Below, piece by piece: positions 1,382 through 60,201 of a DNA stretch of 64,000 bases (its first letter is position 1; each line of letters opens with the position of its first letter). Both the position numbers and the translations under genes were made by a program. The notes below the pieces were generated by a model. The model saw only the letters and a list, made by a program, of their open reading frames with translations. It made no database searches and was not told the origin of the DNA. Source of the DNA: Clavaria fumosa (lineage: Eukaryota; Basidiomycota; Agaricomycetes; Agaricales; Clavariaceae); the NCBI GenBank assembly GCA_951802425.1, contig OX637799.1, forward strand, positions 186,001 to 250,000, given 5' to 3'.

Positions 1382-3058
1382 TGTTACAGGAAGCAGGGCC
1401 GAATGCTCAGAGATGCTTTCCATCAAATGATTGGGTGCTGGGACTATGTTAGTCCCAAGTGCCGGAATGAGAGGGTCGAAGGTTGTCTGGTTGATTGGGA
1501 TATTACCCTGTCACTGGGTCTTCCGGGGCCTAGGAAAGAGCGAAGTAGGGTGGCTCTGGCTCTGTACTCAGAGTCATTGGCTTCGATGACTCGCTGTCTG
1601 AGATTGGCTACTCCATGAGCGAATGTGTGTTTGAGCGCTTGGCGGTCTGGGTTATCACGTCCAAGGATATCGACACAAATGGAATGACTGAACTCAGTCA
1701 GGTGGTGTGTGAGTCATGTGATCTGGGTTCGTCGCTGACTCAATGTTGGGTAGATGCGTCCGGAAGTTGGCATTGTCACTACTTTGGGCCAAGAGGAGAT
1801 AGGGTACCTCTCGTTGGTGGTAGGGAAAGCCAGTGTGATTCACCAAAGTACAATAAGGTGATAGGGACAAGTGAACAACGCTAAGGGGTTTCCCATGTCA
1901 CTGCACCCCTTATATACTTCAGGGGTGCTGCGGGTTCCTGCAGTGCAGCCCGTTGTCCGCAGCCCAAGGATGCCATCCATCTGCTGCAGCGTGCCTCCGC
2001 AGGCCTGCTCAGTCCGCAGCTGCCTCTCGCAGCACTCCGCAGACTCGCACAGTCCGCAGCTGCCTGATACTGCTCTTTGATGCGGCTCCCGCACTCTTCC
2101 GTTGCCCCTTATCTTGGATGTCATTGCCTTTCGCTTATCAGCCCATGTGCTACTCTGCAGTCCACCACATGGCGCAGCTTATCTCCACATGCTCCTTCAA
2201 CCGTCATGTGCTCCTGTGTGACAGTTCCTTCCCACTGCCTTGCTTATCTCCTGGCTCTTATCCATCCTTTGTGGTATATAAGGAGGGTTTGTACTGCTTC
2301 TCCCTCCCCATCTCTGCTATGTGCTGGGGACCCCACAAACTTAACTTCCTCCCTGCCTCTCATGTCTTCCAACAAGTCACCCCCCTTGTACTCTCTTGCA
2401 TGGCCTTCCATTGGGCAATTCAGAGGGGAGCCGATGACCTCCTCATTCTTACCATTGCCTGACAATGCTACGCTTGTGGCCATCCTGGCCATTTTGCGTT
2501 GGGATGCCCTCAAGTTGTCTGCCCGGGCAACCTTATCTGTGACCTATTCGAGGACCCCCATAGTATTGTCTTTTCTTCCATTTCTCATTCACTTTACTGA
2601 TTCCTTTCTTGCAGAATGGGACTCCATTCCCCCTACTCAATGGGCCTCCCCCTTTACTCAGGGTGGAACTCTACCCCTCTGCCATCGTCTCCTCCGCCAG
2701 CCCCTGCAATGGCTACAGTGGCTTTGCCAGACGTCGAGGGTGAGTATGTCCAGGTTGGGGAGTCTCCTTCTTGGTCAGTGGATGAGGATAGGCTCTGGGT
2801 CTAGTGGCCCAAACGTCGAAGATTCTGTTTGATGTAATACATAGTTTCTGGTTTCAGATTGGTTCTTGTATTACTTATGTGCTTTGATTCCATAAACCAA
2901 TCCCCAATGGCCATCAACAGCGAGGAGCATCTCCTTGCTCTTGATTGCCATTGGCACTTTGGTTTTCTTGTTTCTAGTATCACAGTTGTCCTAATCGTAT
3001 TGCCTTTGTCATGGTCTGCCTTGTTTACATAATCAACTTCGTCATTCTTCCCATGACA
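1382..3058 (-). repeat. Long LTR (1,677 bp), 5' LTR of the element in minus orientation
   Basis: The boundaries come from comparison with the second copy at 6263-13838. In element orientation the LTR starts TGTCATGGGAAG and ends CCTGTAACA, giving TG...CA ends. A minus-strand TATA box (TATATAAGG, about 1908-1916) is placed to drive the retroelement transcript. A second, plus-strand TATA box (GGTATATAAGG, about 2273-2283) faces the other way. The 5 bp outside its U3 end (3059-3063, ATTAT) is the reverse complement of the 5 bp outside the U5 end of the other copy (13839-13843, ATAAT). The U3 region contains an antisense CCHC open reading frame, listed separately. Confidence 0.85.
2319..2803 (+). 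pseudogene. Antisense zinc-knuckle gene in the long LTR, broken copy
   Basis: This matches the intact 145-codon gene at 6517-7006. It starts at ATG 2319, about 35-45 nt downstream of the plus-strand TATA box, and reads through to the region of the CCHC motif (CYACGHPGHFALGC, about 2466-2507). It has an in-frame TGA at 2460-2462 where the other copy has CGA, and the next codon is CAA where the other has CGA; both changes are CpG transitions. The donor (GTATTG, near 2565) and the TTGCAG acceptor (ending near 2614) of a roughly 50 bp intron are kept. The reading ends at TAG about 2801-2803. Confidence 0.6.
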
Positions 3059-7582: not shown

Positions 7583-8184
7583 TAGTGTTGCCACAGCTAT
7601 GACTAGTAGCTGACTAATAGCCATAACCTTAGCTGATTGTAGCTGTAGCCTAGCTGGCAATCAGCTATGGCTACAAAGCAGCTATGACTATGGCTATTGA
7701 TATTTCCATAGCTGATAGCTGCAGCTAAGCTATGGCTAGGTTTGATGTAAAGTTTCAAGTGAAATAAGTTGAGAATAGCACTTTATCTTTCAAATATTTC
7801 ACTGTTAAATGCTCTATTATCTTGTTAGCCATGTTGTAACTCACCTTTTTATCCCTGCTGTGCTGACTTTATCATTCTTAGACTTGTTGCATATGAACCA
7901 GCTTATAAACTGACAGTGACAGTGGTTGTAACTGGTGATAGTAGTGGCATTGCATTATTAGTCAAAGTGGCAGTACCACAGTGTCATGACCACCAGGGCA
8001 TTACAGCAGTGAGAATGAACACATAATTATAATATAAGAGTTGGCAGCTAAGCCATGACTATAGTCAGCTAAACTCACCAGCTGCAGCTATGACTACAGC
8101 TAAGACAAATTGAGACCAGCTAGAGTAGTCACGAGCTGCAGCTGGTCTAGCTGGCTTGTGACTAGTCTAGCTGTGGCAACACTA
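7583..8184. mobile_element. hAT-like MITE, 602 bp, TSD TACCCGAC
   Basis: The terminal inverted repeats are TAGTGTTGCCACAGCTA at both ends. Perfect 8 bp target-site duplications, TACCCGAC, occupy 7575-7582 and 8185-8192. The uninterrupted site is visible in the other long LTR near 1745-1760 (reverse complement reads CTACCCAACATTGAGTCAGC). An 8 bp duplication with a TAGnG start is the signature of hAT elements. The interior has no coding capacity and is rich in AGCT/CTAG subterminal repeats, so it is non-autonomous. Confidence 0.9.
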
Positions 8185-8384
8185 TACCCGACATTGAGTC
8201 AGCAACGAACCCAGATCACGCAACTCACACACCACCTGACTGCAGTAGTACTGAATGAAATAATTAACTAGACACAGCAGTTAGGTATAATTCATAGTGT
8301 ACTCTTTGCAGCTACAGCTGGACAAGGAATCCTTATGGTCAGTCAACTTGTCAAGTTAACTTGTCAAAGGTAGTACATGGGGGA

Positions 8385-10250
8385 CTAGTAGACTAGATAC
8401 AGCTGACAGCTGTGGATCTAGTGGACTAGTTACAGCTACTAGGTGTGGACCTGGTGGACTAGTTGTAGGTGCTAGCTATGGGTCTAGTGAACTAGTTACA
8501 GCTGCTAGCTGTGGGTCCAGTGGACTAGTTACAGCTACCAGTTGTGGATCTAGTGGACTAGGTGCAGCAAGTAGGTGTAGGTCTAGTGGACTAGTTGCAG
8601 CTATTAGCTGTAGATGTAGTGAACTAGTTACAGCTAGTAGCTGTGGGCCTAGTGGACTAGTTGCAGCTACTAGCTGTGGGCCTAGTGGACTAGTTGCAGC
8701 TACTAGCTGTAGATGTAGTGAACTAGTTGCAGCTAGTAGGTAAAGGTCTAGTAGACTAGTTGCAGCTATTAGCTGTAGATGTAGTGAACTAGTTACAGCT
8801 AGTAGCTGTGGGCCTAGTGGACTAGTTGCAGCTACTAGCTGTAGATGTAGTGAACTAGTTGCAGCTAGTAGGTAAAGGTCTAGTAGACTAGTTGCAGCTA
8901 TTAGCTGTAGATGTAGTGAACTAGTTACAGCTAGTAGCTGTGGGCCTAGTGGACTAGTTGCAGCTACTAGCTGTGGGCCTAGTGGACTAGTTGCAGCTAC
9001 TAGCTGTCAGCCTAGTGGACTAGTTGCAGCTACTAGCTGTAGATGTAGTGAACTAGTTGCAGCTAGTAGGTGTAGGTCTAGTTGACTAGTTGCAGCTACT
9101 AGTTGTGGGTCTAGTCAATTACTAGCTGTAGATCCGGTGAATTAGTTACAGCTACTAGCTGTGGGCCTAGTGGACTAGTTGCAGCTACTAGCTGTAGATG
9201 TAGTGAACTAGTTACAGCTATTAGTTGTAGATGTAGTGAACTAGTTGCAGCTAGTAGGTGTAGGTCTAGTGGACTAGTTGCAGCTATTAGCTGTAGATGT
9301 AGTGAACTAGTTACAGCTAGTAGCTGTGGGCCTAGTGGACTAGTTACAACTAGTAGCTGTGGGCCTAGTGGACTAGTTACAGCTAGTAGCTGTGGGCCTA
9401 GTGGACTAGTTGCAGCTACTAGCTGTAGATGTAGTGAACTAGTTACAGCTATTAGTTGTAGATGTAGTGAACTAGTTGCAGCTAGTAGGTGTAGGTCTAG
9501 TAGACTAGTTGCAGCTATTAGCTGTAGATGTAGTGAACTAGTTACAGCTAGTAGCTGTGGACCTAGTGGACTAGTTGCAGCTACTAGCTGTAGATCTAGT
9601 GAACTAGTTACAGCTATTAGTTGTAGATGTAGTGAACTAGTTGCAGCTAGTAGGTGTAGGTCTAGTGGACTAGTTGCAGCTATTAGCTGTAGATGTAGTG
9701 AACTAGTTACAGCCAGTAGCTGTGGGCCTAGTGGACTAGTTACAACTAGTAGCTGTGGGCCTAGTGGACTAGTTACAGCTAGTAGCTGTGGGCCTAGTGG
9801 ACTAGTTGCAGCTACTAGCTGTAGATGTAGTGAACTAGTTACAGCTATTAGTTGTAGATGTAGTGAACTAGTTGCAGCTAGTAGGTGTAGGTCTAGTAGA
9901 CTATTTGCAGCTAGTAGTTGTGGACCTAGTGGACTAGTGGCAGCTACCAGCTGTGGGTCTAGTGGACTAGTTACAGCCATTAGCTGTGGATCTAGTGAAC
10001 TAGTTGCAGCTAGTTGCTGTAGATCTAGTGAACTAGTTACAGCTATTAGTTGTAGATGTAGTGAACTAGTTGCAGCTAGTAGCTGTGGACCTAGTGGACT
10101 AGTTGCAGCTACTGGCTGTGGGTCTAGTCAATTACTAGCTGTAGATCTGGTGAATTAGTTACAGCTACTAGCTGTGGATCTAGTGGACTAGTTGCTGCTA
10201 GTTGCTGTGGGTCTGGTAGACTAGTTACAGCTATTAGCTGTGGATCTAGT
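8385..10250. repeat. 33 bp satellite array, left arm of fold-back element
   Basis: There are about 56 degenerate copies of a 33 bp unit whose core reads CTAGTGGACTAGTTGCAGCT then ACTAGCTGTGGGC. Frequent sub-types are GTAGATGTAGTGAACTAG and GTGGGCCTAGTGGACTAG, arranged in higher-order blocks; for example the succession around 8620-8800 recurs near 8800-8960. The unit is rich in the palindromes ACTAGT, AGCT and CTAG. Because 33 is a multiple of three, long open frames with an 11-residue period arise on both strands; these are not genes. Confidence 0.9.
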
Positions 10251-10251
10251 C

Positions 10252-11900
10252 AGTCAATGATGTAGATTCCTTGCAATAAACTATTGTAATTACAATAGGT
10301 GGCCATTGCGAGAATGACTGAACAAACAATGGCAAACAAAATATGCTAAAAATAAAAACAAAACTCAAAATTGAGCAGCCCTGTGCCTGGTCTCTCAGGT
10401 ACAGGTTACCAATCAAGCATAGCTGCTTTTGGTAAGCTGCTATGACTGTGGGAAATTTTTTGCATGGCTTGCAAAATATGACTTTTTATACACCAAAAAA
10501 TCGGCAAAAATCAGGAGATTCCAGATCCGGACACCCCACATTTGTATCTGCCTTGGCTCAGTGTCAATTTGCAAAATACACAGAAAATATTCATTTTTCT
10601 ACAGTTCTGCAGTACTCTGGCTTAAAAATGGATAGGAGAGGATACACACACATACACACACTACCTGTGGACATATGGGGAGGGTGTGGATTAGTTTAAC
10701 AACTCACCCACCATCTCTGTCACCTCCCTGGAATCCATTACTAGGAATTAGGGTGTTATTGGCCTGGAAGCATGGCTATTTGTTATATTGCAAATTCCAG
10801 CCATCAGACTACACCTTATGACATCTAATACAATCATACAAAGGCCCATAATATTTGGTGCAGAATTACAGATTCCCCATGTCTATTTTCCCAAAATTCT
10901 CAAAATCTCTCCCCAGACAGTCCCCTTTGTCAAATCACATATTCCTGTGGTCTGATAGCTGACAAGGTATGCATGAAAACATGTTCAAAGTTTGGTGAAG
11001 TTAGGCCAAGTTCTCAGGAAGATAGCCCAGAATGTGTCTTTTAGAGGACAGTCTAAAGTGAGAGCAAAGATGAAGGCAAGGATAAGGAAGACCTTGACTG
11101 TCCTCCAAAAGACTCATTCTGAGCTATCTTCTTGAGAACTTGGCCTAACTTCACCAAACTTTGAGCATGTATTCATGCATACCTTGTCAGCTATCAGACC
11201 ACAGGAATATGTGATTTGACAAAGGGGACTGTCTGGGGAGAGATTTTGAGAATTTTGGGAAAATAGACATGGGGAATCTGTAATTCTGCACCAAATATTA
11301 TGGGCCTTTGTATGATTGTATTAGATGTCATAAGGTGTAGTCTGATGGCTGGAATTTGCAATATAACAAATAGCCATGCTTCCAGGCCAATAACACCCTA
11401 ATTCCTAGTAATGGATTCCAGGGAGGTGACAGAGATGGTGGGTGAGTTGTTAAACTAATCCACACCCTCCCCATATGTCCACAGGTAGTGTGTGTATGTG
11501 TGTGTATCCTCTCCTATCCATTTTTAAGCCAGAGTACTGCAGAACTGTAGAAAAATGAATATTTTCTGTGTATTTTGCAAATTGACACTGAGCCAAGGCA
11601 GATACAAATGTGGGGTGTCCGGATCTGGAATCTCCTGATTTTTGCCGATTTTTTGGTGTATAAAAAGTCATATTTTGCAAGCCATGCAAAAAATTTCCCA
11701 CAGTCATAGCAGCTTACCAAAAGCAGCTATGCTTGATTGGTAACCTGTACCTGAGAGACCAGGCACAGGGCTGCTCAATTTTGAGTTTTGTTTTTATTTT
11801 TAGCATATTTTGTTTGCCATTGTTTGTTCAGTCATTCTCGCAATGGCCACCTATTGTAATTACAATAGTTTATTGCAAGGAATCTACATCATTGACTGAC
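10252..11900. repeat. Central palindrome of the fold-back element
   Basis: Bases 10252-11053 and 11096-11900 are almost perfect reverse complements over about 800 bp, separated by a 42 bp unique spacer (11054-11095). The left arm starts GTCAATGATGTAGATTCC and the right arm ends with its complement. The arms contain twin small open frames (68 and 85 codons, 10429-10699 and 11450-11720) that are mirror copies of each other and resemble nothing I know. I treat them as chance frames. Confidence 0.9.
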
Positions 11901-11904
11901 TAGA

Positions 11905-13365
11905 TCCACAGCTAGTAGCTGTAACTAATTCACCAGATCTACAGCTAGTAATTGACTAGACCCACAGCTAGTAGCTGCAACTAGTCAACTAGGTCCACAG
12001 CTAGTAGCTGCAACTAGTCAACTAGGTCCACAGCTACTAGCTGTAACTAGTTCACTACAGCTAATAGCTGCAACTAGTCCACTAGACCTACACCTACTAG
12101 CTGCAACTAGTTCACTACATCTACAACTAATAGCTGTAACTAGTTCACTACATCTACAGCTAGTAGCTGCAACTAGTCCACTAGGCCCACAGCTAGTAGC
12201 TGTAACTAATTCACCAGATCTACAGCTAGTAATTGACTAGACCCACAGCTAGTAGCTGCAACTAGTCAACTAGGTCCACAGCTAGTAGCTGCAACTAGTC
12301 CACTAGGTCCACAGCTACTAGCTGCAACTAGTTCACTAGATCCACAGCTAATGGCTGTAACTAGTCCAATAGACCCACAGCTGGTAGCTGCCACTAGTCC
12401 ACTAGGTCCACAACTACTAGCTGCAACTAGTCAACTAGACCTACACCTACTAGCTGCAACTAGTTCACTACATCTACAACTAATAGCTGTAACTAGTTCA
12501 CTACATCTACAGCTAGTAGCTGCAACTAGTCCACTAGGCCCACAGCTAGTAGCTGCAACTAGTCCACTAGGCCCACAGCTACTAGCTGTAACTAGTTCAC
12601 TAGACCCACAGCTGGTAGCTGCCACTAGTCCACTAGGTCCACAACTACTAAGTAGCTGCAACTAGTCCACTAGGTCCACAGCTACTAGCTGTAACTGGTT
12701 CACTACATCTACAGCTAATAGCTGCAACTAGTCCACTAGACCTACACCCACTAGCTGCAACTAGTTCACTACATCTACAACTAATAGCTGTAACTAGTTC
12801 ACTAGATCTACAGCTAGTAGCTGCAACTAGTCCACTAGGTCTACAGCTACTAGCTGTAACTAGTTCACTACATCTACAGCTAATAGCTGCAACTAGTCTA
12901 CTAGACCTACACCTACTAGCTGCAACTAGTTCACTACATCTACAACTAATAGCTGTAACTAGTTCACTACATCTACAGCTAGTAGCTGCAACTAGTCCAC
13001 TAGGCTGACAGCTAGTAGCTGCAACTAGTCCACTAGGCCCACAGCTAGTAGCTGCAACTAGTCCACTAGGCCCACAGCTAGTAGCTGCAACTAGTCCACT
13101 AGGCCCACAGCTACTAGCTGTAACTAGTTCACTACATCTACAGCTAATAGCTGCAACTAGTCCACTAGACCTACACCTACTTGCTGCACCTAGTCCACTA
13201 GATCCACAACTGGTAGCTGTAACTAGTCCACTGGACCCACAGCTAGCAGCTGTAACTAGTTCACTAGACCCATAGCTAGCACCTGCAACTAGTCCACCAG
13301 GTCCACACCTAGTAGCTGTAACTAGTCCACTAGATCCACAGCTGTCAGCTGTATCTAGTCTACTA
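11905..13365. repeat. 33 bp satellite array, right arm of fold-back element
   Basis: This is the reverse-oriented counterpart of the left array, with about 44 units. It is roughly 400 bp, or a dozen units, shorter than the left arm, so array length has changed in one arm since the arms were made alike. Several local blocks include an altered spacing, for example the AACTACTAAGTAGCTG variant near 12645. Confidence 0.85.
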
Positions 13366-13838
13366 GTCCCCCATGTACTACCTTTGACAAGTTAACTTGA
13401 CAAGTTGACTGACCATAAGGATTCCTTGTCCAGCTGTAGCTGCAAAGAGTACACTATGAATTATACCTAACTGCTGTGTCTAGTTAATTATTTCATTCAG
13501 TACTACTGCTGACTGAGTTCAGTCATTCTATTTGTGTCGATATCCTTGGATGCAATAACCCAGACCGCCAAGTGCTCGAACACGCATTTGCTTGCGGAGT
13601 AGCCAATCTCAGACAGCGAGTCATAGAAGCCAACGACTCTGAGTACAGAGCCAGAGCCACCCTACTTCGCTCTTTCCTAGGCCCTGGAAGACCCAGTGAC
13701 AGGGTAATATCCCAATTCGACCCAATCGACCAGACAGCCTTCGACCCTCTCATTCCGGCACTCAGGACTAACATAGTCCTGGCACCCAATCATTTGAGGG
13801 AAAGCATCTCCAAGCATTCAGCCCTGCTTCCCATAACA

Positions 13839-22951: not shown

Positions 22952-25900
22952 TTAAGGCTGGGCGTCCCGACCAGCTAGCTTGGCCTTGTCAGGGTGAGCA
23001 AGGAAGAAGTCCTGGAGAAGCAGTGCCACATTGGTGAGGTTCTGTCGTGGCTCCCAAGTGTTCTCCTCTACAGGGTATCCCAACCACTTCACCAGGTATC
23101 TCACTCCACGCCCCACCTTCTTAACATCAAGGATCGCCTCCACATCATACTCCAGGTGGTCATCATCAATCGTAGGGGGCGGAGGGGGAGGCAGGTTCTG
23201 GGAAGGGAAGGAAGGGGGGTGGTATGGTGTCAACAGCAACTCATTGAAGACCCGATGGATGCGCCAGGCCCGAGGGAGCTTGAGGCGATACCCAGCAGGT
23301 CCCACCTTCTCCTCAACTGCAAAGGGGCCTGCTCTCTTGTTGTCAAGCTTTTTACAGGGCCGGTCCATCTTCAAGTTTCTAGTATCCAGCCAGACCAGAT
23401 CTCCCTCAGAGTACTCCCGACTTGGGCGTTTCCCCTTATTGTAGCTCTTCTTCATCGCTGCCACTGCTTTCTCCATTGCCTCCTTGGCTGCTCTTCGGGA
23501 CTCCGTGAGCTTAGCCATCCACTCGTCCGCCGCCGGGTTCACCTCAGAAGGTGGCCGGAGCCCCCCATTCCATGGGTGTCATCCATAATCGAGGAAGAAA
23601 GGTGTCTGTCCTGTTGCTGAGTGCTCACGATTATTAAGAGCAAACTCCGCAGTGGACAACCATTCAGCCCAGTCATCCTGGAGATGGTCCACGTAAGCCC
23701 GGAGATAGATCTCCATCTCCTGGTTCGCCCGTTCCGTCTGTCCATCAGTCTGCGGATGAAAGGCAGTACTTGGATTTGCCTTTACCCGGATCATGGAGTA
23801 GAACTCCTTCATGAAGCGGGACACGAACTGGGACCCCCGGTCACTCACAACCTTGTGAGGGACTCCATGGTCACGAAACACTCGATCCCGGAGGAGACGC
23901 GCCGCTCCAAGTCCTGTGAGGTCGAGCCCGATCGCTTCGAGCAGTGTCCGTTTCGTGAATTTGTCGACAATAACAAGGATGGCATTATGTCCATGGGAGA
24001 GGGGGAGGGGACCGACTATGTCCCATGAGATCACCGACCAGGGACCATCGGGCACCAGATGGGGGTGCAGTGGGGCAGCACGCTTGGTACGGTCGGGCTT
24101 CGTCCACTGGCATGTCTCACACCCCTGGGCATACCGATCCGCATCTTTTACCATGTCCAGCCACCAATAACCCTTCACTAGTGCTGCTCTCAACTTCCAG
24201 GGCCCAGGGTGTCCAGCAGCGGGGAGGTCATGCTCAAACTCGACAACGGCCTCACGAGCTCCTAGGGGGACCCAGGTGACTATCCCCTTTCGCCAGAGTC
24301 CAGCACGATCTCGTGTCCACTCATCATCAAGCTCCTCTGGCTTCTGTATGTGTACCGCGCTATTTTTCTGGAGTAGCGTCTCCATTTCCGATGTGAATGA
24401 CACACGGACTTCCGTTTCCGGGAAAACCTGCACTGGTGCATCCTCCTCCACCATCTCTCCATAGTCTGGTCTCCGGGAGAGTGCATCTGCCTTTGTGTTC
24501 GACTTGCCAGTGCGATACTTTATCTCAAAGTCAAAGCACTGGAGCTCTCCAACCCAACGAACCTGCCTCGGCTTCAACCTCTGGGGCTTCCGGAAGTACT
24601 GGAGGTTTGCATGGTCCGTCCAGATCTCGATCATCTCCTCTGCTCCAATGAGGTATGCTCGCCACTTGCGAAGTGCCCGAATCACAGCCAAGAACTCCTT
24701 GTTGTACACATCGTAGTTCTTCTCAGCTGCAGTGAGGGCCTTGGAGATATAGTCAACAACTCTCCAGGTTCCATCCGTCTGCTGCTGCGAGAGCACTCCA
24801 CCAGTTGCCAGGTTGCTTGCATCTGTCTCTACCTTCCATCTCCCTTTGTCCTGAGGCAGAGCCAAGACCGGGGCTGATACGAGTGCCTGGCGGAGATCTC
24901 GGAAGGCTGCTTCCTCCTCCTCCTCCCATTTCCACGGAACATTCCCAGTCAGCCGGAAGAGTGGCTTTGCCCGGGCAGAAAGATTTGGGATGTGCCGGCG
25001 GAGGTAGTTCAACATCCCATTGAACCTCTGGACATCCTTCACATTCTTAGGACGTGGCCAATCTCGGACTGCCGCACCCTTGGCCGGGTCATGCTCTAGT
25101 CTGTTGTGGGAGATCTTCATCCCCAGGAAGATGATCTCACTCTTCTCAAACTCGCATTTACTGAGTTTGAGACACAACCCATTCTCTCCAAACTTCCTCA
25201 AGACCTGATCCATCCAGTACCGGTGTGTAGCCAAGTCCTCTGCAAACACAATGACATCATCCACATAGGCCCTCACATGTCCTCCTGCAATCTCCTCCCT
25301 CAACACATGGTTCATGAAGCGTTGGAAGGTGGCAGGGGCATTCTGCAGTCCAAACCACATGACAGCTGGTTCGAAGAGTCCACGGGGTGTCAGGAAGGCG
25401 CAGCGGTGCTGGTGCTCGGGCCAGACCTGCATAGATGGGAAACCTCCCTTTGCATCAATCTTAGAGTAGATCGATGCTCCTTTAAGCACATCCACTGTGT
25501 CTCGGATGTGGGGGAGGGGGTACTTGTCCTTGATCAGGTGTGCATTCAGCCTCGAGTAGTCGATGATTGGCCGCAGTTTGTCCTTCTCATGTTTGAAGAA
25601 GAAGGGGCTGGCATACGGGGATTTCGAGGGCCGGATTCGTCCAGAAGCAAGCTGCTCATCCACCCAACGGTTCATCTCCACCATCTCCTGCCGTGTCAAA
25701 GAATACAGCTTGGAGGAGAGGTGCTCAGGGTCCTTTTTGAACTCGATCTTAATATCGAAGTCTGGTCGGGAGCGGGGAAGTTCATCCCACTTTGCTTCAC
25801 TAAACACCAAAGGGTAGCGGCTGGGCCAATCGGGGGTAGGGCCAGAGTTGGGAAAATGGGTGTCCAGAATACTCGTGGATGCGAGGGTACTCGTTTTCAG

Positions 25901-27403
25901 GGGTGCAGGGGCTCGAGGGGATGGGGAACACTGTGGGGGGCAGCGGGTAAGGCTCACCTCTGCCTTCTGCCAGTCGATATCTGGGTTATGCCGCTTGAGC
26001 CAGTCATGCCCAAGGATGACCTTGTGGGACTGGGTCTTTCCCAGCAGAAAGTGGATCCGCTCCTGGTGGTCACCAACTCTCACCAGCACCTCTATCCCAT
26101 ATCGGACCTTTCCATCCCTGTTCTGTGTCCCATCCACATTATACATGGTGATTGGGTTCAGCAGGAGAGATGGCTCCAGTCCCACTCCTTTCGCCCACTC
26201 CAAATCCATGAAGCAGTTGGTGCACCCTGAGTCGACAAGGGCCTTCATTGTGGTCCCTTTGCCAGTGCTGAAAGCCTCCAAGTGCACCTGGATGGCTAGC
26301 TCTCGTGGCACATGTTTCCGCACTTCTGGCAGCACTCTGGTTAGGCGCTCTGCCAGTCTCACTTCCTCCTTCACCTCAGCCCCAATTCGGGTATGTCTCC
26401 GCTGCAAGATAGTATATCGGGGTATACTTGCAGCAGGCACAGGGACGGAAAGGGGGCTGGCACACTTCTTCTCCCCAGTGGGAGTCCTCCTCTCTCTCTC
26501 ACACAGCTCTATGCAGGCTCGGAGCCGTGCAATCTCTTTCTCATATCTCTCCGCCATTTGGGGGGCACATGGTGCTGCCCGGGTTTGGGCCCTTGGGACC
26601 TGCAGACACGTATCAGGCAGGGGGCAGAAACGGACAGCATGGCCAGTCTGGTGGCATCGGAAACAACATCTCTCATCAGCAGGGGCCCATCCTCGGGCCA
26701 TGGCCACATCTGGAGTACACAGCAGAGGGGTCACAAGAGGTCGCGAAACGGTCACGGCAGGTCACGGTAGGGTCGCGGTGGGTCGCGCGGGGGTCACAGT
26801 GGGTCGCGGTGTCCGTTCCGTGAGTATCCCATCCAGTCGCCTTTGCTGGGCATCAAGCCTCTCAGCCAGCACCTTCCATTCTCCATATGTCTCTGGCATC
26901 GGGGAGACACCATAGATTCTCTCCACCAACCTCCTACTCAGGTTCAACTCCAGCCAATGGACTAGGATTCCTGAGTCCTTCTCTGCACTCAACTTCGCCC
27001 GTCGGGACAGCGTCTCGAATTTCGCGAAGAACTCTGGTGCTGTCATGGCACCCTGTTTCAGCCCTGCAATATCGGCAAGGGCAGTCGCACAGTCATTTGG
27101 GTCATCGAATGCGCGCTTCATCTCCTCCACAAGCTCTGCCCAGGTTCCGGCCTCGCCACTACCCAGGATCTCTTCCGCCTTCATATTCGCCCACTCTGCA
27201 GCGAATCCTTCTCCAGTAATTTTGCTCAGAGCAAAAAGGACCTTCACCAGGTCCACAGCATAGACAGTCGGGTTCGCCATAAACAGGAGGCGAAGGGATC
27301 GGAGGAACGTACAGAAGTTCCTTTTCTGCCCATCAAAGGGGGCAACAGATAGGTCAAGCCTCATAGGTTGGGCTACAGGCGGGGCGACATGGTCTGCCAT
27401 CAC
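22952..27403 (-). CDS. gag-pol polyprotein of the young gypsy element (two in-frame TGA)
   Basis: One frame of about 1,484 codons. Gag is at 27403-26762 (starts MMADHVAPPVAQ). Then come a CCHC zinc knuckle (CFRCHQTGHAVRFC, 26660), protease (VDSGCTNCFMDLEW, 26230), reverse transcriptase (LRPIIDYSRLNAHL, AYVDDVIVFAED), RNase H (TDASNLATGGVLSQQQ, 24820), integrase zinc finger (YAQGCETCQWTK), catalytic core (SDRGSQFVSRFMKEF; HPQTDGQTERANQE) and a C-terminal chromodomain (LEYDVEAILDVKKVG, 23150-23010) that would steer integration to modified chromatin. In-frame TGA codons lie at 26762-26764, between gag and zinc knuckle, and 23579-23581, where the middle-aged copy has TGG. No frameshift is seen. 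The first TGA could be a readthrough point or a CGA mutation; the second is most simply a mutation. Activity is uncertain. Confidence 0.9.
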
Positions 27404-51381: not shown

Positions 51382-54300
51382 ATGGACTTGGACAAGATGC
51401 CCGACGTGCTCACGCTCCTGGCACAAACTTATAATCGCTATCGCGATAGACCCTCTCGGATTGCTGTGGAACTTGTTCTGGCAGATGTGGTTCAGCAGTC
51501 ATCTCCCGCCACGTTGACAGATTCTTCAAACTCCACATCTCTTTCTCTGCTCGTCTTGGAGTGGCTCGCTGCGGAAGTCGGTCGGCTCCTTAAGCACGGT
51601 TCCGAGAGGTTCGCCATATGCAGGATTCGTGACTTTAGCTGACAACAATTGCCTAGCTCCGTCGCTCCTAACAACGTCTACCTTCTTCTAAGCTGGCACT
51701 GTGTACTTTACAAGAACTGGGACATCAGCCGTTTGCCAGCTTTCCAACGCGCCAGACTATTAGAGACACTTGCTGCTCTTTTCGCCCATATTCTTGCCCT
51801 ATCGAATCTCGCGAAAGCGAAGTGGGAAAAGAATGCATTGCGAAAGATCCGTCAGGCCCTAGATTCGGTGGGCCGTCCTGACATCGTCCTCAAATAATGG
51901 TTAACCGAGGATCACATAAGTCACCACAGTCGTTGGTGACTACAATTACAACACTGTTGGCCATATCGAATGGAAGTGCAACACCTCTTGTAACATTTCC
52001 ATTACTCGGAATGGCGCTTGATGCATCGATACGATTGGACGCCGTCCAAGGCATTCGGAGACTGTCGGATTCGATCAAAGTGAGCACCTGTTACCTGTCG
52101 TTGACTTTCAACTGATCTCCTGGTCCAAGGAAACCATACTATCCCTGTATGTGAAAGAATTTTTGGCTCCTAAGACACCAGTACCAATGCATGTTGCCGT
52201 ATGTATGGCTCTTGTAATGTTTTTACCTGTCCTGATTCCCTTTGTCAGCCTGCTTTCCAAGGTTTTATCCACAATTACTGTTTGCCCGAGGATCTGTCTA
52301 CTACAATATTGCCCGTCGCAGAGAAGGTTCTCCTCCGCTCACCCGAACACTCATTAAGCGGTGATTTTTCTTTATTCCTCAAGCGAAAGCCCATCTAATC
52401 CGTTTTAGTCCTGAAAAACTTCTTCACTGCGTATGCTCACCCTCTCGATGAAACCTCCTTCGGCCGACTGTTTTCGCCTATCCTTGCCTGTGCAAAATCG
52501 ACAAGTTCTAGCATTCGCAAGGGCTCGGTGGATGTTCTTGTTGCTATATTATCTCATCGTCCCGCCTTGGCAATCCAAATTCGAACTGTCACGGAGTTAC
52601 TAAGCTTGCCGAAAAGAGGCAAATCCAGCTCTGCTGATCACCGAACTGCACTCTATTCTATGCTTGCATCCGTGGATCTCTCACCATCTGCCTCGACGAT
52701 GATTGTTGAGACCGCCATTCCACTATTAGTGAAGGAAGTGCACGAAGCTGCAACCTCAGCGTTATCATCCGTACTGCCGACACACATCAACTTCTTGCTC
52801 GATTCTGACACACAAATTCCTGAAGTGGTCGCGTTGATCATTCCCAAGGAGATGATTAGTGCTAAAGTTGGGTCACGTGCCTTATACTCTACACTCGGTT
52901 CTGCTCTATTGCTGAGTTCTGACCTAAAAAATGGCTCATACGTCGCATTTGCTCGTGCGATCTTGCCTTGTGTCGAGAAAACTCTCTTAACGTCTCACTC
53001 GACTTCGCTCAGCGAGATTCGTCTCCTCGAGACATACGTTGCAATTGCATTATTACTCGGCCCACTTCACCGTTCTGGGAAGTTTGGTAAACCACAATCT
53101 AGCATAAATCATAGTCCGACCTCGTATATTGATGTATGCCAATTCCCGCAGATGACGCTGTCGCCCGAAATTCTACCATACAAGCTCTGCAGGACCCCTC
53201 GATAAAGCCTCACTTCTTTATGTGGGACAAGGTTTACAAGAAGCTGTCTGGAGAAGAGGACGAACTTTGGCTCTTGAGGGCGGTAGAAGCAACGTTCTTT
53301 TTCTTGGCTGATGATCTTCTGAAGAATGATTCACTGCGGTCAGCATCCTTCCCGCATTTTGTCGATTTTCAAATTGATTTTTCTGCCAGGCATGAATTAG
53401 GCATGATACTACTTCAGCTCGCAATCCAAGGGCGCACGTTCAGGGTCAAACAGGCTGTATCGGTTACCCTGCAGGGTGCCGTCTGTCGGCTACCTGTCCT
53501 CGCAAGCTCCCTCATACGAGAAGCCCTGACGTATCATGTTTCACAAGGACCTATCACCACTGCCCTGCCTAATCTATCTGGGGAGCAAAGCAAGAAACTC
53601 AGCGGCGGCGGCGGTTACCCAGGTTTTCTTCTTTGCAGCGCTGCCTTCGACGCAAGGCTTGATATGTCGACGAGAGAACAGTTGGTGGCAGAATTAATTG
53701 TGCTGGGTCACCATTGTTGCATCTGTGTGTGACAACCTTTTGGTATCCTTTTGGTTATCTGAAAATTTGCTTGGAAGCTCCGTTATCTCGTCAGATTTGG
53801 ATTGATCTTTGCCAAAAAGCTGGGGTTAATCCGCACAACCTTGTTGATCAACATCTCGAGACACTGTGCAGTGTTGTGTTCAAATACTTGACGTCCAACT
53901 TTCAGGCAGGTGTTGACCACATTTTTTCTGCCCCCCTCGCTTATGCTCCTTACTTTAGCAATTTGTAGATGCTTGCCAAAATGCTGTGAAGACAATCGCA
54001 TTTGTGTCTCCTCAACGGGCTATCCCTGAACTCGTTGAGCTTTTATGCGCTGACATCCACCCTACCGCAATCAATAGCTTGTCTGAGAGATCATTAAGTA
54101 TCTGGTCTACTCCTCCCGGAACCCTTTACATTAACCGTAATTCATGTCCATCTCATGGATCATTGGTTTCTTCTCATTGATCTGTAATAGCACCCAAATC
54201 CGACGGCAACATCTCTCGCAAGGACAAAGATTCTGAAGAGGAGAACTGGAACGAAAAGCATCAGAAGCCGCTGACAAAACGGGGAGCCTCCAATCCCAAG

Positions 54301-57300
54301 CAAGATCAGAACCTGATGCGGATGCAGCTCGACGAACAGTCACGCATTCGTGAACAGATTGCTCTACTGGTTTCCCGCACTAGGCGAGGCATTGCTTTAC
54401 TACGTGGACTCATCGCCGCTCACATGAGCGAGTTTGGTTCATACATGACTCGTGTCATCTCAATTTTGATGGATGGCATCTTGGGTGCGAACGGTCGAGT
54501 TCTCTTTAGGAACTTAGGATATGAAATTTACATGGTGAGATTCTCGCATGGTCCTCGGACAACAGGTCATGACATCCCTAGGAACTTTCTATTTGCTGCT
54601 CTGAGCGGTTGGGCTCACTCCGGAAATTCATCGGAGTTGCTATTCTTCGTAGCCTTCAGAATATCCCAGTTCCGGAAGAGCTCCAGGCTGAGCCAATTTC
54701 TTGTATGCTGGAATTCATTTGATAGTGATTGCAGCGCACTCACGGCACCTCAGCACTTTTCCTGCGAGTGCTCTATGAACTTCGCTCGCTGGCAGAACAA
54801 TTGCCTTTCGACCTCGCTACTTTCTCATATTCATTCCCTTTGCTCCAACAAGTCCTGATGAAAGAGGGGAGCGAAGACAATGCTGAATTGGAGCCAATTG
54901 CACTTGCTTTGGATATCATCAATTTTCATCGTGTTGAATGTGCGACGGTGCCCAAGTCATCAATGCTCTCGCTCATCCTTTTTGGCAATAGTTGAGGATC
55001 TTTCATTCCCGAGGTCAAAAATAATGGAATGTGTCCTCCACGTTCTTCGACGACAGCCTCAAGTTATGAATAGCGCGTCTTCCCTGCTCATCGGCATTGC
55101 GGGATCAGTGTGCACAAATGCGGCTCCCACCGAGATCAGCCCCCTGATACGTGGGACGCTCGCACAAGAAACGCAGGTTAGAAAAACATGTCTACAGACG
55201 TTACAGGTGTGTTCTCAGTAACCCTGCGCGCGCGATCTCATTCCACGACCAAGCCGTTCGATTTGGTTGACTTGGGCTGGTCGCCCGAGCTCTGGGTTGC
55301 AATGCATGATGAGGATGATCAAAATGCAGCGCTTGCCTTGCGCTTGTGGGGGGACAATGACTTAGAGGTTCCAGAGAATTTCTTTCATGGACTCGTTGGT
55401 TTTCTCGGTGGGTCCAGTACTCGTGACACCGTTAGTGGTCGGCACCAACTTCACTCTGTAAGACCACCCGATCGCCTATGTCCGGACCAGCTCGTCTGCA
55501 GCCATTGCCAACGCGGCAACGCTTTGGTCCCAAGTAATACCAGCGATACACGAAACTCTGCAGGAAATCTATCGCGCTAAGGTAAGCCATTCAACTTCGG
55601 CAACCGCGAATGACGTTTATGACGCGACAACTTAGGCTAAGGCCTCGGTGCCTGAGTTTGATGAATATGTGAGCTTCCCTAGATTTCAAAATTCAGGCTT
55701 CTGATCACCTGCCAGGGTCTACTCGTAGAGGGCACACCCGATGGTACAGATCCTCGATTAGCAAGGTTCTCGGTCGCTCGAGTATTGCGCTTGCTTGCCC
55801 CGCATTTGAGCGTGGGTGAAGTCGAACTCTTCTTCGACTTTCTGCTGCAGAGTGGGGCACTCGGCGATGATGCTGCTGATGTCAGGGCGGAGATGCTCGC
55901 GGCTGGGACTGCGATGATCAGCGGTCTTGGCCCTGAGCCACTCGCCAAGCTTATTGGATTGCTCGAAGAACATCTCGGCGCTGCAATACCCGCTTCTGCT
56001 GCCGATCACATTAAAGAGGGCGTGGTCGTTCTTCTGGGCAGTGCTGCAAGCCACTTGTCTCCTGCAGATCCTCGCATTCCTAGCATCGTTGCTCGACTCG
56101 TTCGTACGCTCGAAACACCTTCGGAACAAGTGCAGATCGCTCTCTCTGAATGTCTTGCCTCTTTGATCAAGCCAATGGGTTCCGACGTCCACTCCCTGGC
56201 GGACCAACTGTTCGACCAAGTTTTCAGGGCACCGAAGTATGCCGCTCGTCGAGGCGCTGCGCACGGTTTGTCAGGATTCATCAAGGGAAGAGGTGTCTCA
56301 GGCATGAAGGGATTTAATGTTATGTCACGTTTACAGATAGCTATTGAAGACAAGAAGAACTACGAATCTCGACAGGGCTCCATGTTCCTCGCTGAGGCGT
56401 TATGCAGCAGCCTTGGTCGGCTTTTCGAACCCTTCGTTCCCCATGTCCTGCCTTTGTTACTAGCCTGCTTCGGAGACTCTGTTGCCGATGTTCGGGACGC
56501 TGCCCATGATGCTACTCGGGTCATCATGGCCCATATGTCTCGTTACGGCGTCAAGTTAATGTTGCCCCCCCTCCTTCTCAGCTTGGAGGAGAAGCAGTGG
56601 CGTACAAAGAAAGGTTCTATAGAACTGCTTGGCATGATGGCCTACTGTTCTCCGAGACAACTCTCACTTTCACTTCCGATCGTCATCCCTCGTCTAAATA
56701 AAGTTCTAACCGAACCTCACGCGCAAGTCCGAAGCTCTGCGAAAAGAAGTTTGGAACAATTTGGTGCAGTCATTTCTAATCCTGAAGTCCGATTCTTGGC
56801 CCCGGTTCTAATGAAGGCATTGGCGGATCCGGCCAAAATACCGGATGCCTTGAATTCTTTACTGAAAACATCTTTCACGCACTATATCGACCAGTCATCG
56901 TTGGCTCTCGTACGGATTTGTTTCGTTGCACCTCGTTCATACCCGATGTCTGATGAATCGCTCTAGCTAATTCCCATTGTTGACCGAGGGTTGCGTGAGC
57001 GAAGCGCTGATACAAAAAAGAAGGCGACCCAAATTGTCGGTAACCTTGCATCACTTGCTATCACGAAAGACTTCGTGCCATACCTGTTTGGACTACTTCC
57101 ATTGGTGCATACCGTGCTCGTAGATCCAGTCCCGGAAGCCAGGGCGACTGCCGCCAAAGCGTTAGGAACCCTGGTTGAAAGGCTTGGAGAAAACCATTTC
57201 CCGAATCTCGTGCCTGACCTGCTCAAGAACCTAAAGACTAGCACATCTGGGGTCGATAGACTGGGAGCTGCCCAGGGTCTGAGTGAAGTACTGTCGGGCC

Positions 57301-60201
57301 TTGGCATGGAAAGGCTGGAGCAACTACTGCCTGATATTATCAACAGCACACAATCATTGCGGAGCACTGTGCGAGAGGGTTTCATGTGGCTCCTTGTTTA
57401 TCTTCCTGCCACTTTCGGATCCCGCTTCCATGTGGTTCTACCCAAAATTATAAGTCCAATTATTAGCGGCCTCGCAGACGCAGAGGAACCTGTCCGAGAG
57501 GCGGCTATGCGCGCAGGACGCACGGTTGTGACAGACTTTTCCTCGCAGGCTGTGGACGTACTACTTCCCGAACTTGAGGCTGGTGTTTTTGATTCTAACT
57601 GGCGAATCCGGGTAAGTTTTGACCCCTGCAACACCTTCCACACCACTCTCATATGTACCTAGCAATCTTCCGTAACGCTTGTTGGAGAGCTGCTCTTCAA
57701 GATCTCTGGCATCAGCAGCAACGCCCAGGTGGAGGAGCATGATGAAACGTCGGAGGCCTCTGGACGGGCCTTGAGCGAAATATTGGGATCAAAGCGCAGA
57801 AATCGCATTCTTTCTGCATTGTTTGTGATCCGACAGGACGATGTCAGCACCGTCCGACAGGCTTCTATTCATGTCTGGCAGGTTTTGGTTCATAATACTA
57901 ACACTCGAAGAACAGGTAAGTCTATTTTTGCTTCCATTCAACACAAAGCTCATATCCACCTTGTTGCGTAGTGCGCGAGTTACTCCCCGAATTGATGGAC
58001 CATGTTGTCTCCTTGATTTCTAGTGACGAAGTGGAGCAACAAGAGGTGGTTCAAATTTACTAGCGAATTTCTGTCGGGTATCTGAGTGGCAATCTCTAGA
58101 TGGCTGGGCGCACAGTGACTGAACTCTCCCAGAAATTCGGCGTCAAATCGTTTATGGAGGTCGTGCGCATACTCAGGCAGCTTCTCGAATCCCTCAATCC
58201 GCGACTACGCGAAGGGTGCTGTCTTACGATATGCCAGCTTATGTCAGTCACGACCGTCGTGCTGGAACTCGTCAACACTAACGATGGGATTCTCATATGC
58301 AGGGAAAGTTCTACTGAGTCTCAACGTGAGGGTAGCGAGGACGATATCGTCGACGTTGTTCGCGCGTCGCTCGTGGATGGTGAGATGAGAGTCCGCTCTG
58401 CAGCAGCAAAGGCATTCGATGTTCTCCAGGAGCAGATTGGGGAAAGGGCGATAGATCGGATAATACCGACACTTTTAGAGACACTCCGTCAGCCAGGAGA
58501 GGGCTCTGGTACGGCGTTGCAAGCTTTGAAAGAAGTCATGGCAGTGAGTCACATCAACCCTTTGTATGTAGTATTTACTCACGCGTCGCTTAAGGTCCGG
58601 GCATCTACCATTTTCCCAATACTGATTCCGACACTTATATCACCTCCAATAACTGAATTTGATGCCCACGCTCTAGGTTCTCTTGTCACTGTCGCAGGCA
58701 ACACTCTCAATGCGGAACTGCCCAAAATCTTGACGTCACTTACCGGGGAGTTGGAGAATGACGGACTGCAGGCCCAGCTCAGAAGAGCCTTAATCGAAGC
58801 ATTGTATGCTGTATTCACCTCTATCAATGACCCAGAGACCCTGGATATTCTGATGCTGTCATTGCTTGATTGGTATTTTTTTGTATTGATCTGTTTGGTT
58901 CCTGAGCTCACCATTGTCCTCAGGATGGAGCATGGTACGGACCTTCGTCGGGCCAACACTTGCAAATATTTCGCTCGGTTCTGCGAGACGTCGCAGCTAG
59001 ATTTATCAATCTACCAAGCAGATTGGATTCGGCAACTGCTTACTCTGTTCATGCATCGGGACCTTCCCCTCCGTACTGCGGCCTGTGATGCGCTAGATGT
59101 ATTTGTGAACTCTTTTCCGAAGGAAAAGCACGAGTTGTTGGTCGTCCCTCTCAGGCGCGCAATTGAATCCATCGGTAGCCCGAATCAAGTTATTCACGGT
59201 TTCAGTCTCCGGAATGGCATTTCATCTATCGCACCGATAATCATTGCAGGCCTCACCGTCGGTACTAGCGAGCAGCGAGAGCAGGCGGCATATGCCATCA
59301 GCGACTTGGTAGAGCGGGCCGAAGACAAAGCCATCAAACCTTTCGTCGTACCTTTCACAGGGCCTCTAATCCGCGTGGCGACGCAATCGACGACGTACAC
59401 GCCAGCTGTGAAAGTTGCGATTCTCACTGCCTTGATGACGATGTTGACGAAGATTCCCGACTTTGTCCGACCCTTTTTTCCCCAGCTGCAACGCACATTT
59501 TTAAGAAGCGCAAGCGATCCAACCAGCTTTCTGATACGCTCCAGGGCAGCCAAGGCTCTTGATGTGCTGATGCAGCGACAACCGAGAATTGAACCTGTGA
59601 TCAACGAGTTGGTAGCGCTTGTGCGAAGCAGTGATGATGAAGTCGCTCGTTCTCTGATTATATCTATATCAAATGTGATCAAAAGTGCAGGAGCGGGGTT
59701 TGGCGAGAAGGGAAAATCAAAATGCCTCGAACTCATTTCAGATGCATTCGCAAGAAATCCAGAAGGCATGCCATGCCTTTGCTCTCCATTGTCCCTCGTT
59801 GACATCTCACTTTAGAAAATTATTCGCAAGCAATTGCTCTCCTTACCGTGTCCCTGGCACAATTCCCTGAGCTTCTTGAACCTGTATTGCAGTGAGTCTC
59901 ATGAGATTATGTCAGGTTGTCTAGGAATAATGTCGTTGGCACTGTCAGCTCGCATCTAAGCGCGCAAGTTACACCCACGGTTCTCTCCTCACGTGTGCTT
60001 TTGGCACTCCTTTCGCCCTCCTTGGAGTCGAGCTCTTGTGCAGCAGCCAGATTTTCGAAAGATTTCCTGCTGGGAGATATCACCAATGAGGTGTTGGCAG
60101 GAGTTACCAGCAAAAATTCATTGGTAGCAGAGTCAGCTAGAGAAGCCAATGAGCTGTTGCATAAGCTAGTTAGTGAGGGTCTGCAGAGCACAGTGGTGTA
60201 A
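51382..60201 (+). CDS. GCN1: Gcn1, HEAT-repeat activator of the eIF2-alpha kinase Gcn2
   Basis: A very large protein of about 2,500 residues on many exons, the usual size. On ribosomes it relays amino-acid starvation to Gcn2. The start is MDLDKMPDVLTLLAQTYN; the stop is at 60199-60201. Almost the whole protein is HEAT repeats. The conserved eEF3-like core lies at about 56230-57000 (KYAARRGAAHGLSGFIKGRG; SMFLAEALCSSLGRLFEPFV; WRTKKGSIELLGMMAYCSPR; PHAQVRSSAKRSLEQFG) and continues at 56991-57610 (LVERLGENHFPNLVPDLLKN; VREGFMWLLVYLPATFG). The region expected to bind the Gcn2 RWD domain follows at about 58100-59815 (GRTVTELSQKFGVKSFMEVV; VVPLRRAIESIGSPNQVIHG). Introns are short, many with GTAAG/GTGAG donors (near 51645, 52080, 54530, 57612, 57913, 58880 and 59815). 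I did not verify every junction, but no break looks like damage. Confidence 0.93.

Follow-up and report, generated by a model that had tools for sequence, protein, structure and literature searches.

Introduction

Transposons whose terminal inverted repeats (TIRs) carry tandem repeats have been described in animals. Tetris of Drosophila virilis is a non-autonomous fold-back element in which each TIR comprises a flanking domain, an outer domain of tandem repeats and an inner domain; the repeat is similar to a portion of that flanking domain and has been proposed to be an amplified part of it, and no autonomous partner was found (PMC4079207). Galileo of Drosophila has 7-bp target duplications, long TIRs with variable numbers of tandem repeats and a known P-superfamily transposase (PMC3573991), and Tm1 of root-knot nematodes has composite TIRs with short tandem repeats (PMC3169594). 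Here we describe a family of similar build in the basidiomycete Clavaria fumosa, read from a 5266-bp element at positions 8243-13508 of the window G000:C6:186001-250000, which is the whole 64,000-nucleotide stretch of DNA analysed, and searched for in the genome assembly (48.76 Mb, 17 contigs).

The likeness to Tetris covers each of the features named above, whereas the dimensions differ: the Tetris repeat is about 220 bp and its duplications 8-10 bp (PMC4079207), compared with 33 bp and 7 bp here. The Tetris middle domain varies in size, whereas the core here is palindromic almost to its centre, and many Tetris repeats sit in satellite-like arrays outside the element (PMC4079207). With Galileo the family shares 7-bp duplications, long internally repeated TIRs and also the occurrence of copies with non-matching 7-bp flanks, and conversion has been proposed for Galileo as well; Galileo TIRs reach about 1.25 kb at most (PMC3573991), whereas the arms here exceed 2 kb. 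Tm1 is alike in its composite TIRs, differs in its mostly 9-bp duplications and Mutator-type transposase, and has TIRs that are on average 93% identical within one element (PMC3169594). A preliminary description of the window had judged the design unusual; since the architecture is known from Tetris, Galileo and Tm1, it is not new as an architecture.

Results

The window element is bordered on both sides by a perfect CTGACTG duplication (8236-8242 and 13509-13515), and its coordinates and flanks agree with those first proposed. An inverted paralog of the host repeat (1382-1752, minus strand), 89% identical through the joined flanks, has an uninterrupted site with a single CTGACTG; the window element is therefore an insertion. 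This empty site, together with the duplications at other copies, upholds the earlier view of an insertion and not a local rearrangement. Each arm begins with a 142-bp terminal domain (8243-8384, plus strand; 13367-13508, minus strand), the two domains being identical. The left 33-bp array has 57.2 units (8385-10250, plus strand), and the right array, opposite in orientation, has 45.2 (11899-13366, minus strand). Between them lies a palindromic core (10251-11898), made up of two arms and a 42-nt apex (11054-11095). Identity is 92% between the outer inverted arms (8242-9100/12651-13509) and 98% between the inner ones (10199-11053/11096-11950), which are 42 nt apart. The nested layout of end, array and unique inner arm suggested by the preliminary description thus stands in its order, but the inner arm is one half of the palindromic core.

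A whole-genome search with a 29-bp end pattern, allowing up to three mismatches, found 81 end sites (43 forward, 38 reverse), against none for the reversed control pattern, so that the element is not alone in the genome and the refuting condition set in the preliminary description, a lack of further copies, does not hold. Fifty-four of these ends pair as 27 inward-facing candidate copies, of which the 26 outside the window were fetched; nine of the 27 unpaired ends were also fetched. An exact 7-bp duplication flanks 18 of the 27 paired copies, with 18 different sequences, and a duplication with a single mismatch flanks two more (L039 and a 25-kb copy). Among the nine fetched unpaired ends, five represent a single 70-bp end fragment, carried by a block near chromosome ends whose duplication extends to the flank; the other four have the full 142-bp end followed by an array, and two of these also have core sequence. 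When the 27 paired copies and these four ends are taken as 31 loci, five neighbour gaps of 50 kb or less are observed against 0.94 expected (p = 0.002) under uniform placement, a null that does not model compartments rich in transposable elements. On C3, the neighbouring copies L022-L024 share near-identical cores and have different flanks, which suggests that they arose through local jumps.

The bare 11-mer CAGTAGTACTG occurs at 106 sites and its reversed control at 383; among the 100 matches listed, those beyond the 81 ends gave no new close inward-facing pair. Positions 43-69 are missing from six of the 81 ends, those at C1:2025255, C2:1236720, C2:1312570, C2:1379941, C2:3062421 and C12:2137723; all six retain positions 16-43, one of them with two mismatches. 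On C2, the ends at 1236720, 1312570 and 1379941 lie on the same strand with the terminal 43 bp present and positions 43-69 absent, and no array 16-mer stands near these three among the matches listed. At G000:C2:2377097-2382100 the array 16-mer recurs over a long reverse-oriented stretch that has a diverged end (three mismatches in a 28-base pattern) and no 29-base end match; this copy is derelict or rearranged. When flanks were cross-matched in search of recombinants, a single 7-mer match appeared, between the left flank of L032 and that of the window element, which is about chance level.

In 21 of the 27 paired copies there is an end, an array, a core, an array and an end, and nothing more. 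These uninterrupted copies are 1,990-7,698 bp long; their two arrays are opposite in orientation in all 21 and unequal in length in 19. Array arms hold 14-115 units, and the terminal 142 bp are identical in 40 of the 58 fetched ends. Cores are palindromic and about 1.65 kb long, though shortened in some copies, and each of the 27 paired copies shows at least a partial match to the window core. As in fold-back (FB-like) transposons, long inverted arms account for most of the element, tandem repeats lie within them in variable number, and the insertions are discrete, with target duplications.

The longer copies are interrupted by other DNA. Ty3/gypsy elements with gag and pol lie inside the 11.8- and 12.7-kb copies, and the insert of the 25-kb copy is related to the gypsy element of the 12.7-kb copy at the DNA level, its own frames not having been Pfam-scanned. 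The insert of L020 is a Tc1-type element. A 12.6-kb copy (L011 + L012, C3:691233-703869) contains an extended palindrome and other DNA; its frames of 619 and 229 codons, the two that were scanned, have no Pfam match. Inverted segments of 1,473 bp, 99.3% identical to each other, flank the core of this copy on both sides, and the segment occurs once in L020 at 92.5% identity. The scan for a transposase covered one frame of the window left arm, eight frames (among ten proteins) from the three 11.8-12.7-kb copies or their flanks, six frames of the window core, L038 and L020. The six core frames had no Pfam match, nor had the 2-kb centre of L038 in six frames, and no transposase fitting the ends was recognised in any of the sequence scanned. 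The absence of an encoded transposase noted earlier accordingly holds for the frames scanned, and the autonomous element sharing these ends that the preliminary description envisaged was sought and not found in the four long copies, L038 and L020.

The consensus of the array unit is CTAGTGGACTAGTTGCAGCTAGTAGCTGTAGAT (1514 units, 166 distinct) and contains two dyads, CTAGT-NN-ACTAG and CAGCTA-N-TAGCTG. With units aligned on the first dyad, position 22, which is the axis of the second dyad, is almost unconstrained (0.31 bits), and the other positions of that second dyad carry 1.6-2 bits except position 26 (0.74); anchored on the second dyad, the first carries 1.6-2 bits except at position 1 (1.0) and its free centre. 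Formation of a DNA hairpin was considered and is not supported: compensatory double changes number 2 against 0.6 expected at pair 21-23 of the second dyad, whose remaining five pairs show none. As compensatory changes are not in clear excess, the unit is likelier to be a protein-binding motif than a hairpin. A search against Rfam gave no match. An alignment of 1.6 units to positions 25-78 of the terminal domain scores 22 (shuffled mean 9.8; none of 1000 shuffles as good), and the likeness persists with the 22 array-adjacent bases excluded; the array therefore looks like amplified subterminal sequence of the element, and its units may represent transposase-binding sites that have been amplified. 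Loci fetched for this family contain 648 of the 753 genome matches to the unit 16-mer. The description of the arrays as satellite is thus apt in that 33-bp repeats fill part of both arms, but given this distribution and the subterminal likeness they are not an independent satellite.

Away from the apex, the two arms of a copy resemble each other far more than they resemble arms of other copies. Core arms were aligned in 21 copies, excluding those with deleted or interrupted cores (L019, L036, L038 and the 11.8-, 12.6- and 12.7-kb copies). Arm divergence within a copy is 0.14% across the outer 640 columns, against a mean of 2.5% with shuffled mates, and in columns 640-770 it is 1.5% against 5.3%; in neither case was any of 10,000 shuffles as low. 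In the 33 apex columns the difference is 10.5% within copies and 9.0% with shuffled mates, and since 9,163 of 10,000 shuffles lie at or below the observed value, the apex is without homogenisation. Once four recent sisters are dropped, leaving 17 copies, there are 220 cases of a minor state present in both arms and 19 of one confined to a single arm. Identical differences beside the apex recur in most copies, which argues that both arms are of long standing and do not arise anew with every jump. The arrays behave similarly, with 57% of 66-mers common to an array and its own mate against 26% with other arrays (21 copies; none of 20,000 shuffles). In L024 each arm has a 2,883-bp array, the two being 99.97% identical, and its near-identical neighbours L022 and L023 have unequal arrays. 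Arm-to-arm gene conversion that fails near the apex would be the simplest cause of this pattern.

The ends are more uniform between copies than the core arms are. Because copies were picked by their first 29 bp only, positions 30-142 are a fair sample of the end; their mean difference among the same 21 copies is 0.46%, compared with 3.1% for core arms between copies. This low divergence is consistent with selection to keep the ends fit for transposition, and conversion among copies could add to it.

Profile searches of the genome gave at least 185 KDZ matches, together with 132 CxC2, 79 hAT and 7 MULE matches; such plentiful KDZ accords with a basidiomycete. As judged by eye, none of the 150 KDZ matches listed, of the CxC2 matches listed or of the 79 hAT matches lies between paired ends. 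KDZ matches at a distance of about 17.35 kb from the five unpaired ends that lie close to chromosome ends were considered as a possible partner and rejected, because these ends are all the same 70-bp fragment, carried by a block with five occurrences that are 99.5-99.8% identical across about 9.9 kb with the outer flank included. This block of at least 9.9 kb (L040, L043, L044, L047 and L048, near the ends of C1, C4, C5, C11 and C12) also contains a Ty3-type gag that adjoins the end fragment, the KDZ match lying inward of that fragment.

Other features were seen in the window. A separate 602-bp element at 7583-8184, 58 bp from the fold-back element, has the ends TAGTGTTGCCACAGCTA..TAGCTGTGGCAACACTA, an 8-bp duplication TACCCGAC and AGCT-rich sequence near its ends; it is absent from the inverted paralog near 1745-1752 and is presumably hAT-like, judging by its ends. 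A Ty3/gypsy pol frame lies at 23582-26755 (minus strand), and exons with GCN1 and HEAT-repeat domains lie at 53136-59812 (plus strand).

Discussion

Leaving its enzyme aside, we consider it very probable that this is a real, multi-copy, non-autonomous family of cut-and-paste fold-back DNA transposons, built like Tetris. The fold-back transposon with satellite arms put forward in the preliminary description is borne out by the many copies, their 7-bp duplications, the empty site and the lack of a recognised transposase. The architecture is known, and the fungal family is a new member of it. Within the open-licence full-text literature, searches on fold-back elements of fungi or basidiomycetes brought up nothing but one paper on Mutator elements. 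The statistical evidence that arms within a copy stay alike is clear.

Some observations weigh against this picture. Seven of the 27 paired copies have no duplication, and some of them may therefore be recombinants or false pairs. No transposase is tied to the fold-back ends. The mate is the nearest or co-nearest relative for just 31 of 42 core arms, and the mate array is top-ranked for just 17 of 42 arrays, in both cases partly owing to recent sisters. L024, whose arrays are the clearest case of an equalised pair, lacks a duplication and could be a recombinant, and assembly or polishing may add to the likeness of identical arms.

As to the mobilising enzyme, a Kyakuja-type KDZ transposase is the likeliest candidate, KDZ genes being plentiful in this genome, but we judge the case for it, made by analogy, to be about evenly balanced. 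Kyakuja elements of Laccaria are described as having 7-bp duplications and CA..TG termini, encoding proteins and being without TIRs (PMC12730594). The CAG..CTG ends of the present family and its exact 7-bp duplications conform to the first two of these features, which are found in Kyakuja of Agaricomycetes (PMC12730594), whereas its kilobase inverted arms and lack of a protein do not conform to the description. Because of these arms the family is not classed as Kyakuja, only as possibly moved by one. TIRs do occur in KDZ1-3 of Cryptococcus neoformans, at 139-241 bp (PMC12810828) and so near the 142-bp end here, but those elements differ in having 8-bp or 4-8-bp duplications and a length of about 9-11 kb with a transposase gene (PMC12810828).

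It is possible, though on present evidence doubtful, that a hAT transposase of the hAT7 kind mobilises the family in place of KDZ, and an enzyme of some other type, or one since lost, is similarly doubtful. Families of hAT7 with 7-bp duplications are known in rust fungi, which offers a precedent, but it is from rusts that they are reported (PMC12730594). The genome has 79 matches to the hAT dimerisation domain, yet none of them lies between paired ends. The usual hAT terminal start is YARNG, which the first five bases of the family, CAGTA, do not fit.

A different account of the arms, in which every jump builds the palindrome anew, perhaps through hairpin or snap-back synthesis, would make them alike without conversion. 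The likeness of arms within copies agrees with it, as do L029, L030 and L039, which have no arm difference at all. We nevertheless regard re-formation as improbable: it would erase the apex-side differences, yet most copies share them, the apex columns differ within copies as much as between copies, and array lengths are unequal in nearly all uninterrupted copies. Slightly less credible again, and very unlikely, is a Mutator-type (FB-NOF, Tm1) or P-type (Galileo) fold-back element. The 7-bp duplications and long, internally repeated TIRs of Galileo have their counterparts here (PMC3573991), but Tm1, a Mutator fold-back element, has mostly 9-bp duplications (PMC3169594), only the 7 MULE matches were found and, unlike the situation in Galileo, the P-type profile PF21787 had no genome match in a search that lacked a positive control. 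Palindromes are easily misassembled, but an assembly artefact or local palindromic rearrangement is hardly credible for 27 paired copies that differ in flanks and lengths, 18 of them with an exact duplication of their own, and in the presence of the empty site at 1382-1752. That the arrays are coding repeats of 11 residues is equally hard to credit, despite one open frame per strand in the consensus unit and one array with 929 stop-free codons, since stops in the two frames without a fixed stop number 7 against 6.3 and 17 against 20.7 expected from independent positions (1514 units) and dozens occur in each frame of the window arrays; the multiple-of-three unit length, to which significance had been attached, carries no coding signal in these counts.

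Returning to conversion and a KDZ enzyme, a mechanism can be outlined. A transposase supplied in trans would bind the ends, and perhaps also the array units with their two dyads per 33 bp, and would move the whole palindrome. Gene conversion from arm to arm would keep the arms alike, and array length would shift through slippage or unequal exchange. We hold only tentatively the combined proposal that KDZ transposases drive this fungal fold-back family in trans and that each element is a self-correcting palindrome whose arms, binding-site arrays included, repair each other and only the apex escapes. If true, such mutual repair would keep both ends matched and transposable.

The occurrence of 27 paired copies in one assembly makes two ideas testable, namely that internal repeats serve as transposase-binding sites and that gene conversion is the keeper of arm likeness. 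With a likeness that is strong in the outer arms and fades to none at the apex, the family would offer a clear natural record of how conversion declines within a palindrome.

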